From Gelidibacter salicanalis (GTDB lineage: Bacteria; Bacteroidota; Bacteroidia; Flavobacteriales; Flavobacteriaceae), in the NCBI RefSeq assembly GCF_007997285.1, contig NZ_VORX01000002.1, forward strand, positions 496,001 to 560,000: a stretch of 64,000 bases of DNA, given 5' to 3'. Below are positions 14,292-24,094 of this stretch, one piece after another. Position numbers and translations under genes: made by a program. The notes below the pieces were generated by a model. The model worked only from the letters and a program-made list of their open reading frames with translations. It searched no databases and had not been told where the DNA came from. The stretch's first letter is position 1. Each line of letters begins with the position of its first letter.

Positions 14292-15398
14292 TTATTCATC
14301 CCGGTCTAAATAGTAGTCTACAAGTTTTGAAATTTGTTGCGCTTCTGCCAATTCCAGTAAAGCTCTATTGGTATCATAGGTTAGATTTGAATTCATAGGA
14401 AACGCAAACCCATAGCCTTGTTTAAAATATTCAGCCTTTGCGAGGTACAAACCGTCATCTTTATGGTTTTTTAAATAATACAACAATTGCGGACGATCAT
14501 ACACAACGGCATCTACATCTTTATTGATTAAACGCTCCATAGCTTCATTTAGGGTGTTCGTACTTGTAATTTTAACCTTGTGGGATGTCAAAAAATTGAC
14601 TGATGGTGAAGCAGCCAGAGTGGCCACCTTACGTCCTGATAACTGTTCAATGTTGGAAACTGTCGATGTGCCAAGTGAAGAGAGTGTTAGTGTACTGGCA
14701 ATTCCCGCCACCATAGATGACGCAAAAATTATTGAAATAATCATCCAACTTCCAGCAATAATGCGGCCCCAGAGAGTTATGGGTGCTTTGTCGCCATACC
14801 CTGTAGTGCTCATAGTAACAATAGCGAGCCACATCCCGGTTCCAATACCATCTATAGGTTTTTGAGAAAATTGATCGGGAGATTTTTTTCGTTCTGCCAC
14901 CCATAATAGCGCACCAACTAGGGCTAAAATAATTAGAAAAACCCCAACGGCCAGCAATAGTTTGATGCTGAAAAGCGGTTTCATTTTTTGCCAAATGCTC
15001 AAATGATCCTCACGAGAAATGATGGCTAAACTTGAGTTGTAAAATGGTTGTGAAAAACGGATATTCTCCAATCGTTTAGAAGTAATGCTAATTGGGCCGA
15101 CAACGACATCTAAATCGCCGCTATTTAAGGCATCAAGTGCATTTTCAACAGATTCAAAATTTTTGGAAGTATAATTCCACGATTCCTTTGTTGCCAAATC
15201 ATCCCATATTTCTACAGCAATCCCTTTAGAGGCTGAATTTGATTTAAATACGAAAGGTTCGTTTCCAGCAATTCCAACCCTAATTGGAACTGTTTTAAAC
15301 GTGGGCTCCGTTTGTGCAGACAGTGATGAATTGAATAATAATAATAATAATAATCCGGCCCAAATAAGTAAGGCTATCAATCGTAAAATAATTGTCAT
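14292..15398 (-). CDS. Prokaryotic ionotropic glutamate receptor-like potassium channel (GluR0 type)
   Basis: The order is signal peptide (1-29), ligand-binding lobe S1 (about 36-130), a channel block and lobe S2 (about 245-368). The channel has a transmembrane helix (146-167), a re-entrant pore with the potassium filter T198-T-G-Y-G-D203 and a last helix (about 208-232). This interrupted periplasmic-binding domain is the iGluR arrangement, and the filter is that of K+ channels, as in Synechocystis GluR0. Amino acid-binding residues are likely R109 (TSKRLENIRFSQPF) and D301 (VVYDRPQL). It would gate K+ on binding an amino acid outside the inner membrane. A run of six TTA leucine codons lies in the signal peptide. 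Monocistronic. Confidence 0.9.
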   Translation of the reverse strand: MTIILRLIALLIWAGLLLLLLFNSSLSAQTEPTFKTVPIRVGIAGNEPFVFKSNSASKGIAVEIWDDLATKESWNYTSKNFESVENALDALNSGDLDVVVGPISITSKRLENIRFSQPFYNSSLAIISREDHLSIWQKMKPLFSIKLLLAVGVFLIILALVGALLWVAERKKSPDQFSQKPIDGIGTGMWLAIVTMSTTGYGDKAPITLWGRIIAGSWMIISIIFASSMVAGIASTLTLSSLGTSTVSNIEQLSGRKVATLAASPSVNFLTSHKVKITSTNTLNEAMERLINKDVDAVVYDRPQLLYYLKNHKDDGLYLAKAEYFKQGYGFAFPMNSNLTYDTNRALLELAEAQQISKLVDYYLDRDE

Positions 15399-15526: not shown

Positions 15527-16168
15527 TCATATTTTTCGATTAATGGTTAACCCATCACGAATTGGCAACATGAGAGTTTCAACCCGAGTATCTTCTTTAA
15601 GCAGCGTGTTGTAGGCAATTAGAGCTTCTGTAGACACATCGTCCTTCTTTATAGGCTCTAGCACCTTTCCGCTCCAAAGCACATTATCTGACAGGATAAT
15701 GCCCCCTGATTTTAATTTGTCAATCACTAAATGAAAGTAGTTGGCATAATTCTCTTTATCGGCATCAATAAACACCAAGTCAAAGGCTGTATCCAACTTT
15801 GGGATAATTTCTAAGGCATTGCCTAAATGCTGCTGGATTTGATTTCCATAATCAGATTTTTCAAAATATTTGCGCTGAAAATCGATGAGTTCTTCGTTAA
15901 CGTCAATAGTGTGTAAAATCCCATCTTTTTGAAGTCCCTCAGCCAAACATAAAGCCGAGTAGCCAGTATAGGTTCCAATTTCCAAAATCGTTTTTGGATT
16001 TACCAATTTAGATAGCATACTCAATACGCGACCTTGATAGTGTCCACTGAGCATGCGTGGTTGTAAAATCTTTTGAAAGGTTTCTCGAGAGAGTTGTTGT
16101 AATATTTTTGGTTCATCTTCAGAATGTGCCGTAATGTAGCGCTCTAAAGGTTCCGGTATAAAATCCAT
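15527..16168 (-). CDS. O-methyltransferase (class I SAM, family 3)
   Basis: A 213-residue catechol/caffeoyl-CoA-type O-methyltransferase: motif I EIGTYTGYSA (63-72), DV at 89-90 for the ribose hydroxyls, divalent metal ligands D135 and D137 (FIDADKENY), and D161-N162 (ILSDNVLWSG). Such enzymes methylate catechols or related hydroxyls. It lies 86 bp beyond the last kynurenine gene on the same strand; a catechol-like substrate such as 3-hydroxyanthranilate is conceivable but unproved, since many flavobacteria carry this gene elsewhere. Confidence 0.9.
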   Translation of the reverse strand: MDFIPEPLERYITAHSEDEPKILQQLSRETFQKILQPRMLSGHYQGRVLSMLSKLVNPKTILEIGTYTGYSALCLAEGLQKDGILHTIDVNEELIDFQRKYFEKSDYGNQIQQHLGNALEIIPKLDTAFDLVFIDADKENYANYFHLVIDKLKSGGIILSDNVLWSGKVLEPIKKDDVSTEALIAYNTLLKEDTRVETLMLPIRDGLTINRKI

Positions 16169-16254: not shown

Positions 16255-17343
16255 CTAAAGGCCTAAAATACGGTTTACTAATCTTTTCTTTGCCACTTCA
16301 TCATCACCGCACAACCATCGGACCACGTTATCTTCCCAAATGGCATCGCGTTCGGTTTCAGTAATAATTTCGCGTTCCATGGCGAGATCTAAAATTTTGC
16401 CTGGGTAGGACGATTGTTGCGCACTTTCCATTTCTCCCAAAGGATACGGATCATCCAAGCCCATCAGCACTTGTTTGGAGCCCTGGTTTTTAATCAGTAA
16501 TTGCAAACCTCCGGTGTCATGTACCAAAGTGTCAAAGAATATATTTTTGTGACCCACAGCTTTTCTCGGATGACTCTTACCTTCAAATAAATCTGGTCTA
16601 CCGTCAAAACCTTGAATACGGCGCCCTAAATTAATTTGTGCCAGTTGGCCACCATGGGCAAAACAGGTACGCATATTTGGGTATTTGTCTTGATACCCAT
16701 TTAAAGTCAAGAAATGATAGGCATCAGCACATTGCGCCAACATCCAAATCAAGTGAAAACGCCATGACGTATTTTCAAGTTTTATGAATTTTTCACCATC
16801 ATAGGGGTGAATTTCAACAGCCAAATTATATTTACTTGCCAGCTCAAATAGGGGTTCATTTTCTTCATCAAAAATACAACGCCAAGTCCCAATGGTATCC
16901 ATGTAATGCGTAGGTAAACACATCAGTTGCATTCCCAATTCTTCTACACAGCGTTCCATTTCCCACATGGCGCCACGAACAAAACCTGGGTGCACTACAA
17001 AACCGGAGGTGAATTTACTCGGATTTTCACGTTGAATTTTCGCATTAAAATCATTTTGAAATCGCAAGGCTTGCTTCATTTCTTCCACTCGCAATCCATT
17101 ACCGTATAATTGGGACAGATTTAAAACCACCGCATGGTCGATTTTAAAACGTTCCATCCAAGCTAATTTTTCATCTAAAAAGAAGCTTGAATCCGTGACG
17201 GGACGGCTCCAATCTTTTTGAAGCATGAATTTTCGGTCTTTATCAACCCAAAATATCCCTTTATCCTTCATGAATTGAGGAATTTCCTCAGGGTAAGGCA
17301 ATAAATGTGAGTGTCCGTTAATGCGTAGTTTGCGTTTTTCCAT
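16255..17343 (-). CDS. 2-amino-3-carboxymuconate-6-semialdehyde decarboxylase (amidohydrolase superfamily)
   Basis: Takes the unstable ring-cleavage product ACMS to 2-aminomuconate-6-semialdehyde, diverting it from quinolinate formation. The metal site of the ACMSD branch is complete: H11-x-H13, H179 (VEIHPYDGE), H230 (FAHGGQ) and D297 (GLDDPYPLGE). Length 362 compares with about 335 in Pseudomonas and human enzymes; the extra residues are in the N-terminal third. It lies next to the dioxygenase that makes ACMS, which supports the assignment over other amidohydrolases. A small hairpin stands 6 nt before its ATG. Confidence 0.9.
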   Translation of the reverse strand: MEKRKLRINGHSHLLPYPEEIPQFMKDKGIFWVDKDRKFMLQKDWSRPVTDSSFFLDEKLAWMERFKIDHAVVLNLSQLYGNGLRVEEMKQALRFQNDFNAKIQRENPSKFTSGFVVHPGFVRGAMWEMERCVEELGMQLMCLPTHYMDTIGTWRCIFDEENEPLFELASKYNLAVEIHPYDGEKFIKLENTSWRFHLIWMLAQCADAYHFLTLNGYQDKYPNMRTCFAHGGQLAQINLGRRIQGFDGRPDLFEGKSHPRKAVGHKNIFFDTLVHDTGGLQLLIKNQGSKQVLMGLDDPYPLGEMESAQQSSYPGKILDLAMEREIITETERDAIWEDNVVRWLCGDDEVAKKRLVNRILGL

Positions 17344-17449: not shown

Positions 17450-17983
17450 TTACTCAATCTTGACCTTTTTAGGCGGTTCCATCAACTCACCACAATTGGG
17501 ACATTTGCGTTTATCCTTGTCCTGGTAATATTTGTCGAAAATCTTTGGCATATCAGTTTCAATATTTTCCACCGTAAAGTCTTCTTCATAGAGTTTTGTG
17601 GTGCAATTTTCACAAAACCATAGTAAGGCGTCACGCATGCCTTCGGGACGTTTGTATTCGATAACCAATCCAACAGTATTGGCTTCGCGTTGCGGGGAAT
17701 GTGGGACTTTAGGTGGTAATAAATAAATATCACCTTCTTTAATATGCACATCTTTTGATGTGCCGTTATCAATAATTTTTAAAATCATATCCCCTTCCAC
17801 TTGATAGAAGAATTCTGGGGTCTCGTTGTAATGATAATCCTTTCGATTGTTCGGCCCACCAACGACCATCACAATAAAATCGCCATCCTTCCAGACCACT
17901 TTATTACCCACAGGTGGTTTTAGAAGATGTCTGTTTTCTTCAATCCATTCCTTGAAATTTATAGGAGAAACTAATTTGCTCAT
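17450..17983 (-). CDS. nbaC: 3-hydroxyanthranilate 3,4-dioxygenase
   Basis: Opens the aromatic ring of 3-hydroxyanthranilate with O2 to give ACMS. This 177-residue cupin has the Fe(II) ligands H51, E57 and H95 and substrate residues R47, R99 and E109. It also has the rubredoxin-like second site of bacterial enzymes: C124-E-N-C127 and C161-P-N-C164. All numbers agree closely with the characterised Cupriavidus enzyme. Cytoplasmic. It lies between the SDR and ACMSD genes on the same strand. Confidence 0.96.
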   Translation of the reverse strand: MSKLVSPINFKEWIEENRHLLKPPVGNKVVWKDGDFIVMVVGGPNNRKDYHYNETPEFFYQVEGDMILKIIDNGTSKDVHIKEGDIYLLPPKVPHSPQREANTVGLVIEYKRPEGMRDALLWFCENCTTKLYEEDFTVENIETDMPKIFDKYYQDKDKRKCPNCGELMEPPKKVKIE

Positions 17984-18348: not shown

Positions 18349-19131
18349 TTATAACGATTTGGTGCGGCCACCATCAACTGGGAGATTAACGCCGTTGATA
18401 TATCCCGCTTTTTCACTTGCTAAAAACGTCACCGCATACGCCAGCTCTTCTGGTTGCGCGAAGCGTTTGGCAGGGACTGTGTTTTTCATGGCATCGGCGG
18501 CTTCTTCTTCCGTCTGACCAGATTTATCCGATTTATTTTTGATAATATCCGTTAAACGTTCTGTTTCGGTGGCGCCAGGAAGTACGTTATTCACGGTAAT
18601 TCCGAATTGACCAAGCTCATTGGCCAAAGTTTTACTCCAATTGGCAACGGCCCCACGAATGGTGTTGCTCACTCCAAGACCATCCAAAGGCTGCTTCACT
18701 GAAGTAGAAATAATATTGATAATACGCCCGTAGTTTTGTTCTTTCATAAAAGGAACAACCACTTGCACCAAAACATGGTTACATTTTAGATGTTGGGTAA
18801 AGGCATTTCCAAATTCTTCCAATTTTGCCGAAAAAATAGGTCCTCCGGCAGGTCCACCAGTATTATTTAAGAGAATGTGGAACCCATGATGTTTAGAAAT
18901 GAACTCAGATACTTTACGTTCCAACTCCTCGGGCTTAGAAAAGTCTGCCACAATATAACTGTGGTTTTCAGGATTGCAAAGTTCTGAAATGGTTTGCTTC
19001 AATTTTTCTTCATTTCGCGCTACCAAAGTCACCTTCGCACCTTCAGCGGCTAATGAAATAGCTGTTGCTTTCCCTATTCCTGCAGTGCTCCCGCACACTA
19101 ATGCGTATTTATTGTTTAGTTTTAAATCCAT
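18349..19131 (-). CDS. SDR-fold protein with altered catalytic residues, kynurenine cluster
   Basis: A 260-residue short-chain dehydrogenase fold with an intact NAD(P) motif (GSTAGIGKA, 14-22) and NNTGGPAGG (89-97). An ungapped comparison with FabG from GRII onward keeps Ser142 but puts Ser155 and Arg159 where Tyr and Lys of YxxxK belong (segment GVSNTIRGAVANW). The C-terminal NNVLPGATETERL and VDGG motifs are normal. Such SNxxR proteins form a known divergent SDR branch of unclear activity. It sits between the semialdehyde dehydrogenase and the dioxygenase, so a role in the pathway is likely but not defined. Confidence 0.85.
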   Translation of the reverse strand: MDLKLNNKYALVCGSTAGIGKATAISLAAEGAKVTLVARNEEKLKQTISELCNPENHSYIVADFSKPEELERKVSEFISKHHGFHILLNNTGGPAGGPIFSAKLEEFGNAFTQHLKCNHVLVQVVVPFMKEQNYGRIINIISTSVKQPLDGLGVSNTIRGAVANWSKTLANELGQFGITVNNVLPGATETERLTDIIKNKSDKSGQTEEEAADAMKNTVPAKRFAQPEELAYAVTFLASEKAGYINGVNLPVDGGRTKSL

Positions 19132-19343: not shown

Positions 19344-20783
19344 CTAGTATTTTATACAAACATTCTTCGCTTCCGTAAAAAAGCGCAAAGCTTCGAATCC
19401 GCCTTCTCTGCCAACTCCGGAAGCTTTTATGCCTCCAAAAGGCGTGCGTAAATCGCGCATCATCCAAGTATTTACCCAAACGATTCCGGCTTGTAGTTGA
19501 TTGCTCATGCGCATGGTGCGTTTTAAATCATTCGTCCATAATGTTGCGGACAAACCGTATTTAACTGCATTGGCCATTTTTAAAACCTCATCTTCAGTTT
19601 CAAATGGCATAATAGTTACTACTGGGCCGAAAATTTCTTCTTGATTAACGCGACAATCGTTCGACGCCACTTCAATAACTGTGGGCTCCAAATAATAGCC
19701 GTTTTTATAATCTTTAATAATTAATTTATTGCCACCACAAAGGATATTCCCATGTTCTGACTTAGCAATTTCAATATAATTCAAGACTTTTTCTAAATGC
19801 GCTTTAGATACTAATGCCCCAATATTTGTTTCTGCTTTTGAAGGATGACCAACTTTAAGTGCTTTAACTCTAGCGACAAAATCTAACTTGAATTTTTCAT
19901 ATATGGACGCTTCCACAAAAATCCGACTGCCACACAAACAAATCTGCCCTTGATTGGCAAACGAAGAGCGCACTGTAGTTCCTAGCATGTCATTATAATC
20001 GCAGTCAGCAAAAATGATGTTCGGATTTTTGCCACCCAATTCTAAAGATAATTTCTTGAACATTGGCGCCGCTACTTTGGCGATATGCGCCCCAGTTGCA
20101 GTGCCTCCCGTAAAACTGATCGCTTTAATGTCTGGATGCTCAACAATGGCTTGCCCTGCGGTAGTTCCTAAGCCGTGAACAATGTTCAATACCCCATTTG
20201 GCAATCCCGCTTCTGTACAAATTTCGCCTAATAAATAGGCAGTCATAGGCGTGACTTCACTAGGTTTGGCAACGACGCAGTTTCCCGCGGCTATGGCTGG
20301 TGCGATTTTCCAAGTAAAAAGATAGAGTGGGAGGTTCCATGGCGAAATACATCCCACCACACCAATGGGTTGGCGTAAGGTGTAATTAATGGCATTTTGA
20401 CCAACACTCTCGTGACTTTCACTACCGAATTGGGTAATTGCATTGCCGAAAAATCGAAAATTACTGGCCGCTCTCGGAATATCCACAGCTTTGGCTAACG
20501 AAATTGGTTTCCCATTGTCTTTACTTTCTGCTTCAGCAAAGCGCTGTAAGTTCGCTTCAAGGAGTTCTGAGATTTTAATGAGAATTCTACTGCGTTCTTC
20601 CAAAGTCGTTTGAGACCAGCTTGGAAACGCCGATTTCGCAGCGCTATAGGCATTCTCTACATCCTCAGTTGACGAATTTGGAATTTGTCCATAAACCTCG
20701 CCATTGGCAGGGCAATAATTATCAATCCACTCGTCAGCAACTGGAGGTAAATATTGACCGTTGATGTAGTTTTGTATCTTCAT
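19344..20783 (-). CDS. 2-aminomuconate-6-semialdehyde dehydrogenase (aldehyde dehydrogenase family)
   Basis: NAD-dependent oxidation of 2-aminomuconate semialdehyde to 2-aminomuconate. Catalytic residues: N150 (SPWNLP), E248 (LELGGKNP) and C282 (NQGQICLCGS). Length 479 fits the family, and the C-terminal PFGGIKASGVGREGG is present. The C282-x-C284 pair and the placement beside ACMSD and the deaminase support this rather than a general aldehyde role. It stands 54 bp after the deaminase gene, so the two are probably cotranscribed. Confidence 0.9.
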   Translation of the reverse strand: MKIQNYINGQYLPPVADEWIDNYCPANGEVYGQIPNSSTEDVENAYSAAKSAFPSWSQTTLEERSRILIKISELLEANLQRFAEAESKDNGKPISLAKAVDIPRAASNFRFFGNAITQFGSESHESVGQNAINYTLRQPIGVVGCISPWNLPLYLFTWKIAPAIAAGNCVVAKPSEVTPMTAYLLGEICTEAGLPNGVLNIVHGLGTTAGQAIVEHPDIKAISFTGGTATGAHIAKVAAPMFKKLSLELGGKNPNIIFADCDYNDMLGTTVRSSFANQGQICLCGSRIFVEASIYEKFKLDFVARVKALKVGHPSKAETNIGALVSKAHLEKVLNYIEIAKSEHGNILCGGNKLIIKDYKNGYYLEPTVIEVASNDCRVNQEEIFGPVVTIMPFETEDEVLKMANAVKYGLSATLWTNDLKRTMRMSNQLQAGIVWVNTWMMRDLRTPFGGIKASGVGREGGFEALRFFTEAKNVCIKY

Positions 20784-20836: not shown

Positions 20837-21247
20837 CTACTCTATATTCTTTTTATAAGCCATCACCTTAATCTCCACCACCAGATCGGGATGTGGCAAT
20901 TGATGCACCGCTACTGTAGTTCTAGTAGGCCCAGTTTCTTTGTCAAAAAACTCGGCATAAGCTTTATTGTACCCAGCAAAATCATTCATGTTGACTAAAA
21001 ATGTAGTAACATCGACGACGTCTTTTAGGGTTGCACCTTCTTTGGCTAGATTTTTCTCAATATTTTTGATGACCTCACGCGTTTGAACTTCAGCATTTAA
21101 ATGTTTGGTGCCCATGACGTCAATAATGTCTACGCCTGCAATACTATTGTCGGCACGCCGGGAACTTGTGCCCGATACAAATATAAAATCGCCTACACGT
21201 TTGGTATGTGGGTAGGCGCCCCTAGGGGTTACTATTTCTTTGCTCAT
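20837..21247 (-). CDS. RidA family protein, probable 2-aminomuconate deaminase
   Basis: A 136-residue YjgF/RidA protein with the family arginine R109 ([16 protein letters not shown]) and E125 (VVEIKVMA). In the 3-hydroxyanthranilate pathway of Pseudomonas, RidA-family AmnD/NbaF removes the amino group of 2-aminomuconate to give 4-oxalocrotonate; position between kmo and the dehydrogenase supports this. A housekeeping RidA role (enamine hydrolysis) is the alternative. Only 4 bp separate it from the kmo stop. Confidence 0.87.
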
Positions 21248-21251
21248 AGGT

Positions 21252-22667
21252 TTAGTGTTTAAAATTTTTCGCTACATGATCATCTTCCAAAATCTCCTCA
21301 GTAGCACGATTTACTTTTTCTAAATTAGTTTTTAAATCAGCATCGATATTAAGTTCCCTGTCGGCAAGCATATTCAAGATGGCTTTATCTTGTGCACGAC
21401 CTCTTAACATGGCTTCTCTATAGCCAATATCTTCATTAAAGGTAACCAATGAATATTTTGACGAATAGTCATCGGGGAAATTCTTTTCAAAGGCCATTTC
21501 TAAATTGCGTTTTTCTCTAAAAATCGCATTGTTGACGTGACCTTTCATCTCATGGAAATTGTCAATAGCCAAATCAGCAATAGCGTCAGTGTCCATTTTT
21601 CGGTTTTTTTCATAGGCCTTAAAAATGGCTTCCCATCCTGCTTCGCTATTTGGTTCTCCCTCTTCTAATGCCTTGTCGAATACAACAACATCCTCAAAAG
21701 ACGCATTCATTCCTTGTCCGTAGAAAGGCACAATGGCATGAGCAGCATCACCCATCAATAAGGTGTTTCCTTTATAATGCCATGGCGAACATTTTACGGT
21801 GCCTAAAGGTGATGTTGGATTGGTGAAAAAGTCATCTACCAAGTTTGGCAACAATTCTAAGGCGTCTTTAAAATATTTTTCAAAAAACTCAAGCACCTTT
21901 TCAGGGGTATTCAAATTTCCAAAATTGTAGTCGCCGTCATCAAAACTTAAAAATAAGGTAACGGTAAAACTGCCATCTAAATTGGGTAAGGCAATCAGCA
22001 TAAAACTATCGCGTCCCCAAATATGTAGTGCATTTTTATAAGTTTGGTAGCCGCCATTTTTAGCAGGAAGTATGCTTAACTCTTTGTAACCATGAGTTAA
22101 CCAATCCTGTGAAAAACTGAATAAAAACTTCTTTCCTAAAAAATAACTTTTCCGCAATGCTGATCCAGCGCCATCTGTAGCGAAAATAATGTCAGCGTCT
22201 TCAACAAAATTTTCCTTTGTTTCATAATCTTCAAAAAGGGCTGTCGTATTTTCGAAATCGACAGATTTACACTTTTTGTTGAAATGAATATTTACATTTT
22301 GATGTTTCTCGGCTTCATTCAATAGTAAAGCATTCAAATCGCCACGAGAAATAGAATTGATAAATTCATGTTCACGTCCGCTATAAGGTGCTAGTACCGT
22401 ATTCCCTTCCAAATCGTGCAACAATCGTCCGTTCATTGGGATGCAGAGTTCTTTCACTTGTTCTTCCACACCAGCAAGTCGCATCGCTTTTAGGCCTCTA
22501 TCAGAAAGCGCTAAGTTGATGGAGCGCCCTGCACTGATGTCAACCTTACGTAAATCAGGACGCATTTCATAAAGATTTATATTAAAGCCGCGTTGACCCA
22601 ATCGTAAAGCGAGTAAGCTTCCACAAAGACCAGCGCCGATGATAAGTATATTTTGTTGTTTTTTCAT
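21252..22667 (-). CDS. kmo: Kynurenine 3-monooxygenase
   Basis: FAD- and NADPH-dependent hydroxylation of L-kynurenine to 3-hydroxykynurenine. The 471-residue chain has the FAD motif GAGLCG (11-16), the [12 protein letters not shown] segment (48-60) specific to KMO, the DG motif (FATDGAGSA) and the [14 protein letters not shown] motif (306-319). The C-terminal region has no strong membrane helix, unlike eukaryotic KMO. It is followed closely by the deaminase gene, and a hairpin stands 5 nt before its ATG. Confidence 0.95.
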
Positions 22668-22798: not shown

Positions 22799-24094
22799 TT
22801 AATTCAAAATCTCCTTTAATTTTTCTACCAAATGATATACATCCTCAAATGAGTTGTATAATGGCGTAGGCGCACAGCGAATCACGTCGGGTTCACGCCA
22901 ATCCGAAATGACACCTGCTTGCGTTAATTTGTTGTTCAATGTCTTGTCTGCATTTTTAACTTGAATAGAGAGTTGACACCCACGTTCGTCAGGATTTGAT
23001 GGCGTGATAATTTTAATGCTGTCGTTCCCTAATTGAAGCAATAGAAACTCGAAATAACCCGTGAGTTCCTTCGATTTTGCAGTTAGTCTTTCCATGCCAA
23101 CTTCTGCGAAAATGTCTAATGAAGCTCTAATGGCTGCCATTGATAAAATAGGTGGATTGCTCAATTGCCACCCTTCTGCACCAGCAAGTTGATCAAATTC
23201 GTCGCGCATCTTAAATCGGGTGGCTTTATTATGGCTCCACCAACCTGCAAAACGGTTGAGGTCTTTATTATGTGCGTGGCGTTCATGAACAAAAGCGCCA
23301 CCTAAACTTCCGGGACCCGAATTTAAATATTTATAAGTACACCAAGCGGCAAAATCCGCACCTGAATCGTGAAGATTCAAAGCCACGTTACCTGCACCAT
23401 GTGCACAATCAAAACCAACTAAACAGCCATGTTTATGACCGAGTTGGGCGATCCGTTTAAAATCGAAAAATTGTCCTGTATAGTAATTAACACCACCAAT
23501 CATAATTAAGGCAATCTCATCGCCCTGCGTTTCCATGATGGCTTCCAAATCTTCATAATTTGCTAATTCTTCACCTTTTCTGGCTTTCCACAGAACAACA
23601 CCATCTTTCGGATCAAAACCGTGGTGCTTCAGTTGGGATTCAACGGCATATTTATCAGAAGGAAATGCATCCGCTTCAATAAGTATTTTATATCGTTTTA
23701 GTGTCGGCTTGTAAAAAGAAACCATCATCAAATGTAGATTGACCGTCAAGGTATTCATGACAATCACTTCAATGGGTTTTGCACCGACCACTTTTGCCAT
23801 GTTTTCCGTTAGCAATTCGTGATAGTGCAACCACGGGTTTTTTGCTTCAGTATGCCCTTCAACCCCTAAATTTGCCCAATCTTCCAATTCTTGATTGATA
23901 TAGTCTTTGGTTGATTTAGGTTGGAGGCCGAGAGAATTCCCGGTCATATAAATCAAGTCATTTCCATTTTTATCCTTTGGAATATGGAAGCGGTCTCTAT
24001 AAGATGCCAATGCATCGGATTGATCTAGTAGTTGCGCGTATGCTAAGCCTAATTTTTGATGTGACAAGGTGTATTTATTTTCGGTTGTACACAA
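22799..24094 (-). CDS. kynU: Kynureninase
   Basis: PLP enzyme that cleaves 3-hydroxykynurenine (or kynurenine) to 3-hydroxyanthranilate (anthranilate) and alanine. The PLP lysine is K255 (WCTYKYLNSGPG), with D229 (GFDCAH) facing the pyridine nitrogen, and TGNSLGL (51-57) and MNTLTVNLH (113-121) as family motifs. The start used here is a TTG at 24094; no ATG lies before residue 50, and another TTG in the same frame at about 24067 is possible, so the N-terminus is uncertain. First gene of the kynurenine set; no tryptophan dioxygenase or formamidase is in the window. Confidence 0.94.
   Translation of the reverse strand: MCTTENKYTLSHQKLGLAYAQLLDQSDALASYRDRFHIPKDKNGNDLIYMTGNSLGLQPKSTKDYINQELEDWANLGVEGHTEAKNPWLHYHELLTENMAKVVGAKPIEVIVMNTLTVNLHLMMVSFYKPTLKRYKILIEADAFPSDKYAVESQLKHHGFDPKDGVVLWKARKGEELANYEDLEAIMETQGDEIALIMIGGVNYYTGQFFDFKRIAQLGHKHGCLVGFDCAHGAGNVALNLHDSGADFAAWCTYKYLNSGPGSLGGAFVHERHAHNKDLNRFAGWWSHNKATRFKMRDEFDQLAGAEGWQLSNPPILSMAAIRASLDIFAEVGMERLTAKSKELTGYFEFLLLQLGNDSIKIITPSNPDERGCQLSIQVKNADKTLNNKLTQAGVISDWREPDVIRCAPTPLYNSFEDVYHLVEKLKEILN

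Follow-up and report, generated by a model that had tools for sequence, protein, structure and literature searches.

Background

Pathway charts show 2-aminomuconate being reduced to 2-oxoadipate, but we know of no gene for this step; nor, to our knowledge, has the mammalian gene for "oxalocrotonate reductase" or "aminomuconate reductase" been identified. PMC7842363 gives the reduction step and names no gene at that point, and a figure legend in PMC12899273 lists an "oxalocrotonate reductase", likewise with no gene named there. The bacterial route known from 2-oxo-3-hexenedioate consists, in the part of PMC10470539 that treats it, of decarboxylation, hydration, aldol cleavage and acetaldehyde dehydrogenase. 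An SDR gene of Aspergillus, ATEG_10008, is syntenic with a 3-HAO/ACMSD/AMSDH cluster and upregulated by salicylate, as a section of PMC7842363 reports. Neither "aminomuconate reductase" nor two variants of the term were found in the literature that we searched, the scope of which left most subscription journals outside, and within the same scope aminomuconate, deaminase, kynurenine and Bacteroidetes were not found together.

Two SDR-fold enzymes of biosynthetic pathways offer a chemical precedent. The BacG reaction of bacilysin biosynthesis can be read as a C=C reduction in which hydride adds to a conjugated 2-oxo acid. The relevant part of PMC9147277 describes it as the conversion of epoxy-3E-H2HPP to epoxy-4S-H4HPP, and AerF, a reported reductase, has a structure determined with NADPH (PMC10143770, in the portion concerned with it).

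Here we describe an SDR gene of Gelidibacter salicanalis that lies in a 64,000-nucleotide stretch of contig NZ_VORX01000002.1 (the window), and we propose the clade to which it belongs, found across Bacteroidota and sharply marked in sequence, as a candidate for the reduction of 2-aminomuconate to 2-oxoadipate.

The kynurenine gene cluster

The SDR gene (18349..19131, minus strand) encodes 260 amino acids from an ATG start and is part of a co-directional series which, in transcript order, runs kynureninase, KMO-type flavoprotein, RidA-type protein, AMSDH-type ALDH, SDR, 3-HAO, ACMSD and O-methyltransferase, all on the minus strand. The kynureninase (22799..24094) scores 462 bits against TIGR01814, over the cut-off. 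The kynurenine 3-monooxygenase-type flavoprotein (21252..22667; PF01494) is named by its cluster context, its best NCBIfam match being VioC at 200 bits, far under the VioC cut-off. The RidA-family protein (20837..21247; PF01042) is a probable 2-aminomuconate deaminase, a role suggested by its place in the cluster and by the known nba/amn clusters. The AMSDH-type ALDH (19344..20783), the next gene upstream of the SDR, was assigned by PF00171 and our own AMSDH profile and has 565 bits against TIGR03216, where the cut-off of 693.25 is not reached. Downstream of the SDR are 3-HAO (17450..17983; TIGR03037 255 bits and PRK13264 275 bits, both over cut-off) and an ACMSD of amidohydrolase fold (16255..17343; PF04909), whose best PDB relatives are ACMSDs (E 4.5e-25).

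An earlier note, made from the DNA letters and giving no strand for the gene, had correctly placed the SDR between the dehydrogenase and dioxygenase genes, here AMSDH and 3-HAO. It had also called the SDR the one cluster member with no assigned step, which overlooks the O-methyltransferase at the cluster end (15527..16168; PF01596); this gene, likewise with no assigned step, is present in 72 of the 80 loci of close relatives examined below.

Two further features of the window may be mentioned. Its ACMSD has 24-30% identity to the ACMSDs that neighbour 3-HAO in other families of Bacteroidota, and it scores 91-92 bits against 4igm, 4ofc, 2wm1 and 4ign, which we take to be human ACMSD structures, and at most 47 bits against the remaining ACMSD entries; by sequence, two ACMSD types appear to occur within one pathway. 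Adjoining the cluster, positions 14292-15398 encode a periplasmic solute-binding domain split by an ion-channel domain (PF00497, PF00060, PF07885), a protein that resembles a bacterial ionotropic glutamate-receptor-type channel.

Active-site residues of the SDR

Membership of the SDR superfamily is indicated by PF13561 (150.5 bits against 27), by the nucleotide motif GSTAGIG, intact as the earlier note had claimed, and by an AF2 model with Z up to 36.1 to SDRs. The protein falls outside the FabG equivalog, with 137.6 bits against TIGR01830 (cut-off 297.75), and does not have the classical N-S-Y-K tetrad, of which S142 is the sole residue left. Ser-Asn-x-x-Arg replaces Tyr-x-x-x-Lys in the stretch GLGVSNTIRG, which places the protein in a Ser..Arg branch of the superfamily. 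The same note was therefore right about S142, which is kept, and about the replacement of Tyr and Lys by S155 and R159; its alignment to FabG, on the other hand, does contain gaps at full length (query 6-256 against 4-241 of the E. coli FabG chain). At column 114, which we take to be the site of the catalytic tetrad Asn, the window SDR has His, so that beyond Tyr and Lys the Asn is swapped as well and the tetrad-equivalent residues are H114/S142/S155/R159, or H-S-S-R.

R39, H114, S142, S155, N156 and R159 are invariant in the SDRs of all 80 close relatives, as well as in all 27 rows of an alignment that spans the phylum at identities down to 49%; the cofactor glycines are invariant in those 27 rows too. 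Because the residue swap is kept throughout both sets, it is not a matter of chance. A protein in which the tetrad Asn, Tyr and Lys are all swapped might be catalytically dead and serve as a scaffold or binding protein for unstable intermediates. We consider this alternative, raised in the earlier note, most improbable: the cofactor glycines, Arg39 and Ser142/Ser155/Arg159 are invariant in those 27 rows, and AerF, in which Ser likewise replaces Tyr and Lys is missing, is a reported reductase whose structure includes NADPH.

The Ser..Arg swap itself is not what ties the gene to the pathway, since SNxxR belongs to a wider SDR branch. The Ser/Arg pair is found in 14 of 14 paralog rows from the same phylum and in the solved SDRs 5va8, TM1169 (1o5i) and APE0912 (2z1n), and SNxxR was accordingly dropped as a pathway marker. 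These three uncharacterised SDRs share Ser-Asn-x-x-Arg with the window SDR and differ from it in the printed alignments by a residue other than His at 114, which in 5va8 is Asn. The signature of the pathway clade is instead His114, Thr143 and Gly153-Val154; His114 is present in 41 of 41 core rows, one of seven basal rows and none of the 14 paralog rows. The SDRs of five pathway genomes (G204, G220, G247, G043 and G212) are more divergent and carry Leu at this position.

Linkage to AMSDH and 3-HAO

Gene order around the SDR is strongly conserved among close relatives, defined here by an identity of at least 77% and bearing titles mostly of Flavobacteriaceae genera (80 loci, of which L033 and L035 are two places on one contig with identical matches). 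All 80 loci have the SDR on the strand of AMSDH and downstream of it, at a gap of 9-1831 bp that holds no ORF of at least 90 aa in 49 loci and such an ORF in 31. It lies upstream of 3-HAO in all 78 loci that reach 3-HAO; here the gap is 28-2559 bp, and an ORF of at least 90 aa is absent from it in 74 of the 78.

The association extends well beyond these relatives. Among 67 phylum-wide regions of up to 20 kb round 3-HAO, 24 (in addition to the window) have an SDR with S142/S155/R159 within 10 kb of 3-HAO, and these 24 proteins have 48-82% identity and come from seven families with several gene orders. In two further families (G109 and G271) the SDR adjoins AMSDH or is at most 1.2 kb from it, elsewhere in the genome. 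Linkage that outlasts gene rearrangement argues for a shared function.

Co-occurrence across Bacteroidota

We sampled 296 Bacteroidota genomes, including that of the window (G000). A profile built from 27 SDRs found the SDR in 50 of them at 321.8 bits or more, the next score being 300.3; this cut was set after viewing the score list, and the SDR tree, which left out two of the 50 SDR genomes (G105 and G030), has a matching break between a 48-row SDR clade and 14 other rows. 3-HAO is over its cut-off in 68 of the 296 genomes; 120 genomes had matches, and the 52 with sub-cut-off matches only (G150 included) were scored as without 3-HAO. Kynureninase, over its cut-off in 98 of the 296 genomes, occurs in 48 of the 50 SDR genomes, and 3-HAO in 41 of the 50 (Fisher 1.8e-23).

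Within the 68 genomes with 3-HAO, the SDR is present in 39 of 42 that have AMSDH versus 2 of 26 that do not (Fisher 5.5e-13). Counted by genus, the one way in which the co-occurrence tests account for kinship, the SDR is present in 28 of 31 with AMSDH versus 1 of 8 without (p 5.7e-5). Where His114 is required as well, the count among AMSDH genomes drops from 39 to 34 of 42. Two genomes, G275 and G283, have the SDR and 3-HAO without ACMSD or AMSDH.

ACMSD and AMSDH were followed in a set of 77 genomes, namely the 68 with 3-HAO and nine SDR genomes without it; the nine were added by choice, and rates among the 77 are therefore not phylum rates. The ACMSD set nearly equals the AMSDH set there (42 of 77 genomes, 41 shared), and in G192, where no ACMSD match was found, AMSDH stands at a contig start. 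The earlier note had asked whether SNxxR SDR genes co-occur with ACMSD. In that form the idea stands in part: the SDR clade tracks AMSDH and ACMSD, while the SNxxR motif itself, shared with paralogs, is unspecific.

The nine SDR genomes without 3-HAO over cut-off also have no ACMSD, AMSDH or KMO, and seven of them have kynureninase; their SDRs fall inside or basal to the pathway clade and keep S142/S155/R159. They tell against the pathway role and favour the view that the SDR is a bystander with an unrelated housekeeping reaction; this view is also favoured by the abundance of such genes, with 9 to 108 SDR candidates per genome among the genomes listed. Linkage in seven families with differing gene orders, together with the AMSDH association, speaks against that view, which we hold to be very unlikely. 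Random co-occurrence, one outcome that would have told against a pathway role, thus finds a mixed answer: nine of 50 SDR genomes are without the pathway, yet the association with AMSDH is strong. Taken together, the observations indicate that the SDR genuinely belongs to the oxidative kynurenine pathway of Bacteroidota and is conserved there.

Genomes that depart from the pattern

In three of the pathway-less genomes (G253, G126 and G033; loci L216, L219 and L222), the SDR stands beside kynureninase, and KMO, 3-HAO, ACMSD and AMSDH are gone. Their SDR flanks largely match the full cluster of G115 (L150), and in the tree their SDRs nest with those of the pathway members G115 and G017. From these sequence comparisons it looks as if the rest of the cluster was lost and the SDR retained, which would imply either another use or a relic in these genomes.

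One such use can be imagined. Loss of ammonia from kynurenine gives a carboxyketoalkene, and the SDR might reduce a reactive enone side product of this kind and so protect the cell, its link to the main route being indirect. This would explain the SDR beside kynureninase in the three genomes that have neither KMO nor 3-HAO, ACMSD or AMSDH, and it fits the kinship of the SDR with double-bond reductases. Against it, among genomes with kynureninase the SDR occurs in only 2 of the 26 in which 3-HAO is present and AMSDH absent, and in 7 of the 30 that have no 3-HAO. The SDR thus tracks AMSDH far better than kynureninase, and we regard protection against a side product as unlikely.

The opposite exception, loss of the SDR despite an intact pathway, had likewise been named in advance as evidence against a pathway role. 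The outcome is again divided, with the SDR missing in three of the 42 genomes that have 3-HAO and AMSDH and one of the three explained. G085 (L148) and G293 (L151), which belong to one family, have 3-HAO, ACMSD, AMSDH and RidA and neither the clade SDR nor the classical branch; a different reductase may serve there. The neighbour c71, common to G128, G085 and G293, was considered as the missing reductase and rejected, as the two of its three members that were run match PF04199 (putative cyclase), presumably the family of kynurenine formamidase, and no reductase.

The classical branch and a proposed glutaryl-CoA route

Homologs of the decarboxylase/hydratase kind (TIGR03218, above 250 bits) were found in one of the 77 genomes, G128, which has two copies, one of them beside 3-HAO. 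None of the 77 genomes reaches the TIGR03218 cut-off of 350.55; the copy beside 3-HAO has 257 bits with this decarboxylase model versus 185 with the hydratase model, and G030 has a weak match of 56 bits. G128 is also the only one of the 77 with a TIGR03217 aldolase match over cut-off. In the window's genome TIGR03218 has no match at E<=0.001, and TIGR03217 has none over cut-off. G128 has 3-HAO, ACMSD and AMSDH and is without the clade SDR, its best SDR (260.9 bits) belonging to the paralog clade. These sequence assignments support the view that the clade SDR and the classical 4-oxalocrotonate branch are mutually exclusive, with one genome of the phylum as the basis.

A plasmid stretch of Caballeronia, with genes for RidA, 3-HAO, an ACMSD-type protein, a hydratase, a fumarylacetoacetate-hydrolase-family protein and acetaldehyde dehydrogenase, contains no related SDR and adds no more than a second example. 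An SDR of the Caballeronia nba cluster was considered as a counterpart and rejected, its best local match covering 65 residues at 28%. A plasmid tblastn search returned 1504 records, all below 60% identity, with 40.1% the best among the matches listed; 9 of the 30 matches listed overlap a DHDPS-family gene as well. In L258 and L260 (Ruegeria and Ensifer plasmids), stretches with 3-HAO and no ACMSD match, 3-HAO is accompanied by a dihydrodipicolinate-synthase-family protein, an aspartate dehydrogenase and a succinate-semialdehyde-type dehydrogenase, gene sets that by their composition possibly represent another 3-hydroxyanthranilate route.

Glutaryl-CoA dehydrogenase is found in 77 of 77 genomes (in the window's genome at G000:C15:83666-84871), and its presence in every one means that it does not discriminate. 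In G115, G253, G033 and G037 its distance from the SDR is about 5-20 kb, and in G115 and G253 a 3-hydroxyacyl-CoA (3-hydroxybutyryl-CoA-type) dehydrogenase is also near the SDR; this dehydrogenase cluster, c27, flanks paralog SDRs too (G236, G267 and G031). By gene inventory, the window's genome thus has the enzymes that lead to 2-oxo-3-hexenedioate and one that follows 2-oxoadipate, and its cluster includes a single oxidoreductase with no assignment.

The exclusion also bears on which intermediate the SDR would meet. It could act on ACMS or 2-aminomuconate semialdehyde, or as an isomerase or tautomerase of an intermediate, and form no 2-oxoadipate at all; its closeness to AMSDH and 3-HAO in many families would suit such roles, and the loss of Tyr and Lys makes ordinary carbonyl chemistry doubtful. 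ACMSD, AMSDH and the RidA deaminase, however, already cover those steps, and G128, with the classical later branch, does without the SDR although it needs the same early steps. We judge these roles quite unlikely. The earlier note's suggestion of a mechanism other than the classical one, with a pathway intermediate as substrate, is itself supported by the linkage, by the co-occurrence with AMSDH and ACMSD and by the exclusion with the classical branch.

Structural relatives and the proposed reaction

The AF2 model of the SDR has a pLDDT of 92. Foldseek placed AerF at rank 1 (6jha, E 5.8e-27, 34% identity) and BacG/YwfH at rank 15 (28% identity). The VIA-align Z is 36.1 for both 5va8 and AerF, and sorbose reductase, FabG and others follow within 1-2 units; the near-equal values for ordinary SDRs mean that the fold alone leaves the function unfixed. 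Judged from the model, the closest characterised structural relatives appear to be the C=C reductases AerF and BacG. AerF (6jh7/6jha/6jhb) is like the window SDR in having Ser at the Tyr place and no Lys; unlike it, AerF shows Lys, Gly and Asn at columns 114, 142 and 159 of the printed alignment. The resemblance is therefore partial, as AerF is without Ser142 and Arg159, and AerF serves aeruginosin biosynthesis in Microcystis, in the formation of the Choi part of the peptide, not amino acid breakdown. BacG/YwfH (3u49, 3u4c) of bacilysin biosynthesis has the same fold and differs in its ring substrate, its antibiotic pathway and its low identity.

With the classical next step missing and AerF and BacG as kin, the step that follows the dehydrogenase is a likelier place for the SDR than the semialdehydes, and BacG-type chemistry applied to 2-oxo-3-hexenedioate would give 2-oxoadipate. 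We think it rather probable that the SDR is an NADPH-dependent C=C reductase that converts 2-oxo-3-hexenedioate (4-oxalocrotonate) or 2-aminomuconate to 2-oxoadipate. AMSDH would yield 2-aminomuconate, which a RidA-type deaminase or spontaneous hydrolysis would turn into 2-oxo-3-hexenedioate. The SDR would then deliver a hydride from NADPH to C4 of the conjugated 2-oxo acid (or of 2-aminomuconate or its imine form), C3 would be protonated, and the resulting 2-oxoadipate would pass through a 2-oxoadipate (2-oxoglutarate-type) dehydrogenase and glutaryl-CoA dehydrogenase to crotonyl-CoA. In such a conjugate reduction the classical Tyr-Lys acid would be dispensable, and the dicarboxylate could be held and polarised by Ser142, Ser155, Arg159, His114 and Arg192. 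We infer the substrate, the preference for NADPH (from Arg39), the atom-level mechanism and the 2-oxoadipate dehydrogenase.

Comparison with known systems

If the proposed reduction is true, tryptophan degradation in Bacteroidota would bypass the known bacterial meta-cleavage branch, which would explain how the pathway is completed without the decarboxylase branch in most Bacteroidota with 3-HAO, ACMSD and AMSDH. It would also give a function to part of the Ser..Arg SDR branch, known by structure but uncharacterised, and provide a lead towards the mammalian enzyme, as the mammalian "oxalocrotonate reductase" or "aminomuconate reductase" carries out the same step as that proposed for the SDR. 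We give about even chances to the fuller statement that the SDR clade is the first gene candidate for this orphan reductase, within a Bacteroidota glutaryl-CoA route and by H-S-S-R conjugate reduction of a dicarboxylic 2-oxo acid. The SDR fold and the double-bond-reductase mechanism are already known; the substrate, the place in the pathway and the H-S-S-R signature would be new. The nearest bacterial comparison is the nba/amn-type lower pathway, which, in the account given in part of PMC10470539, takes the same intermediate after AMSDH and a deaminase. Where that pathway decarboxylates it, the route proposed here would reduce it.
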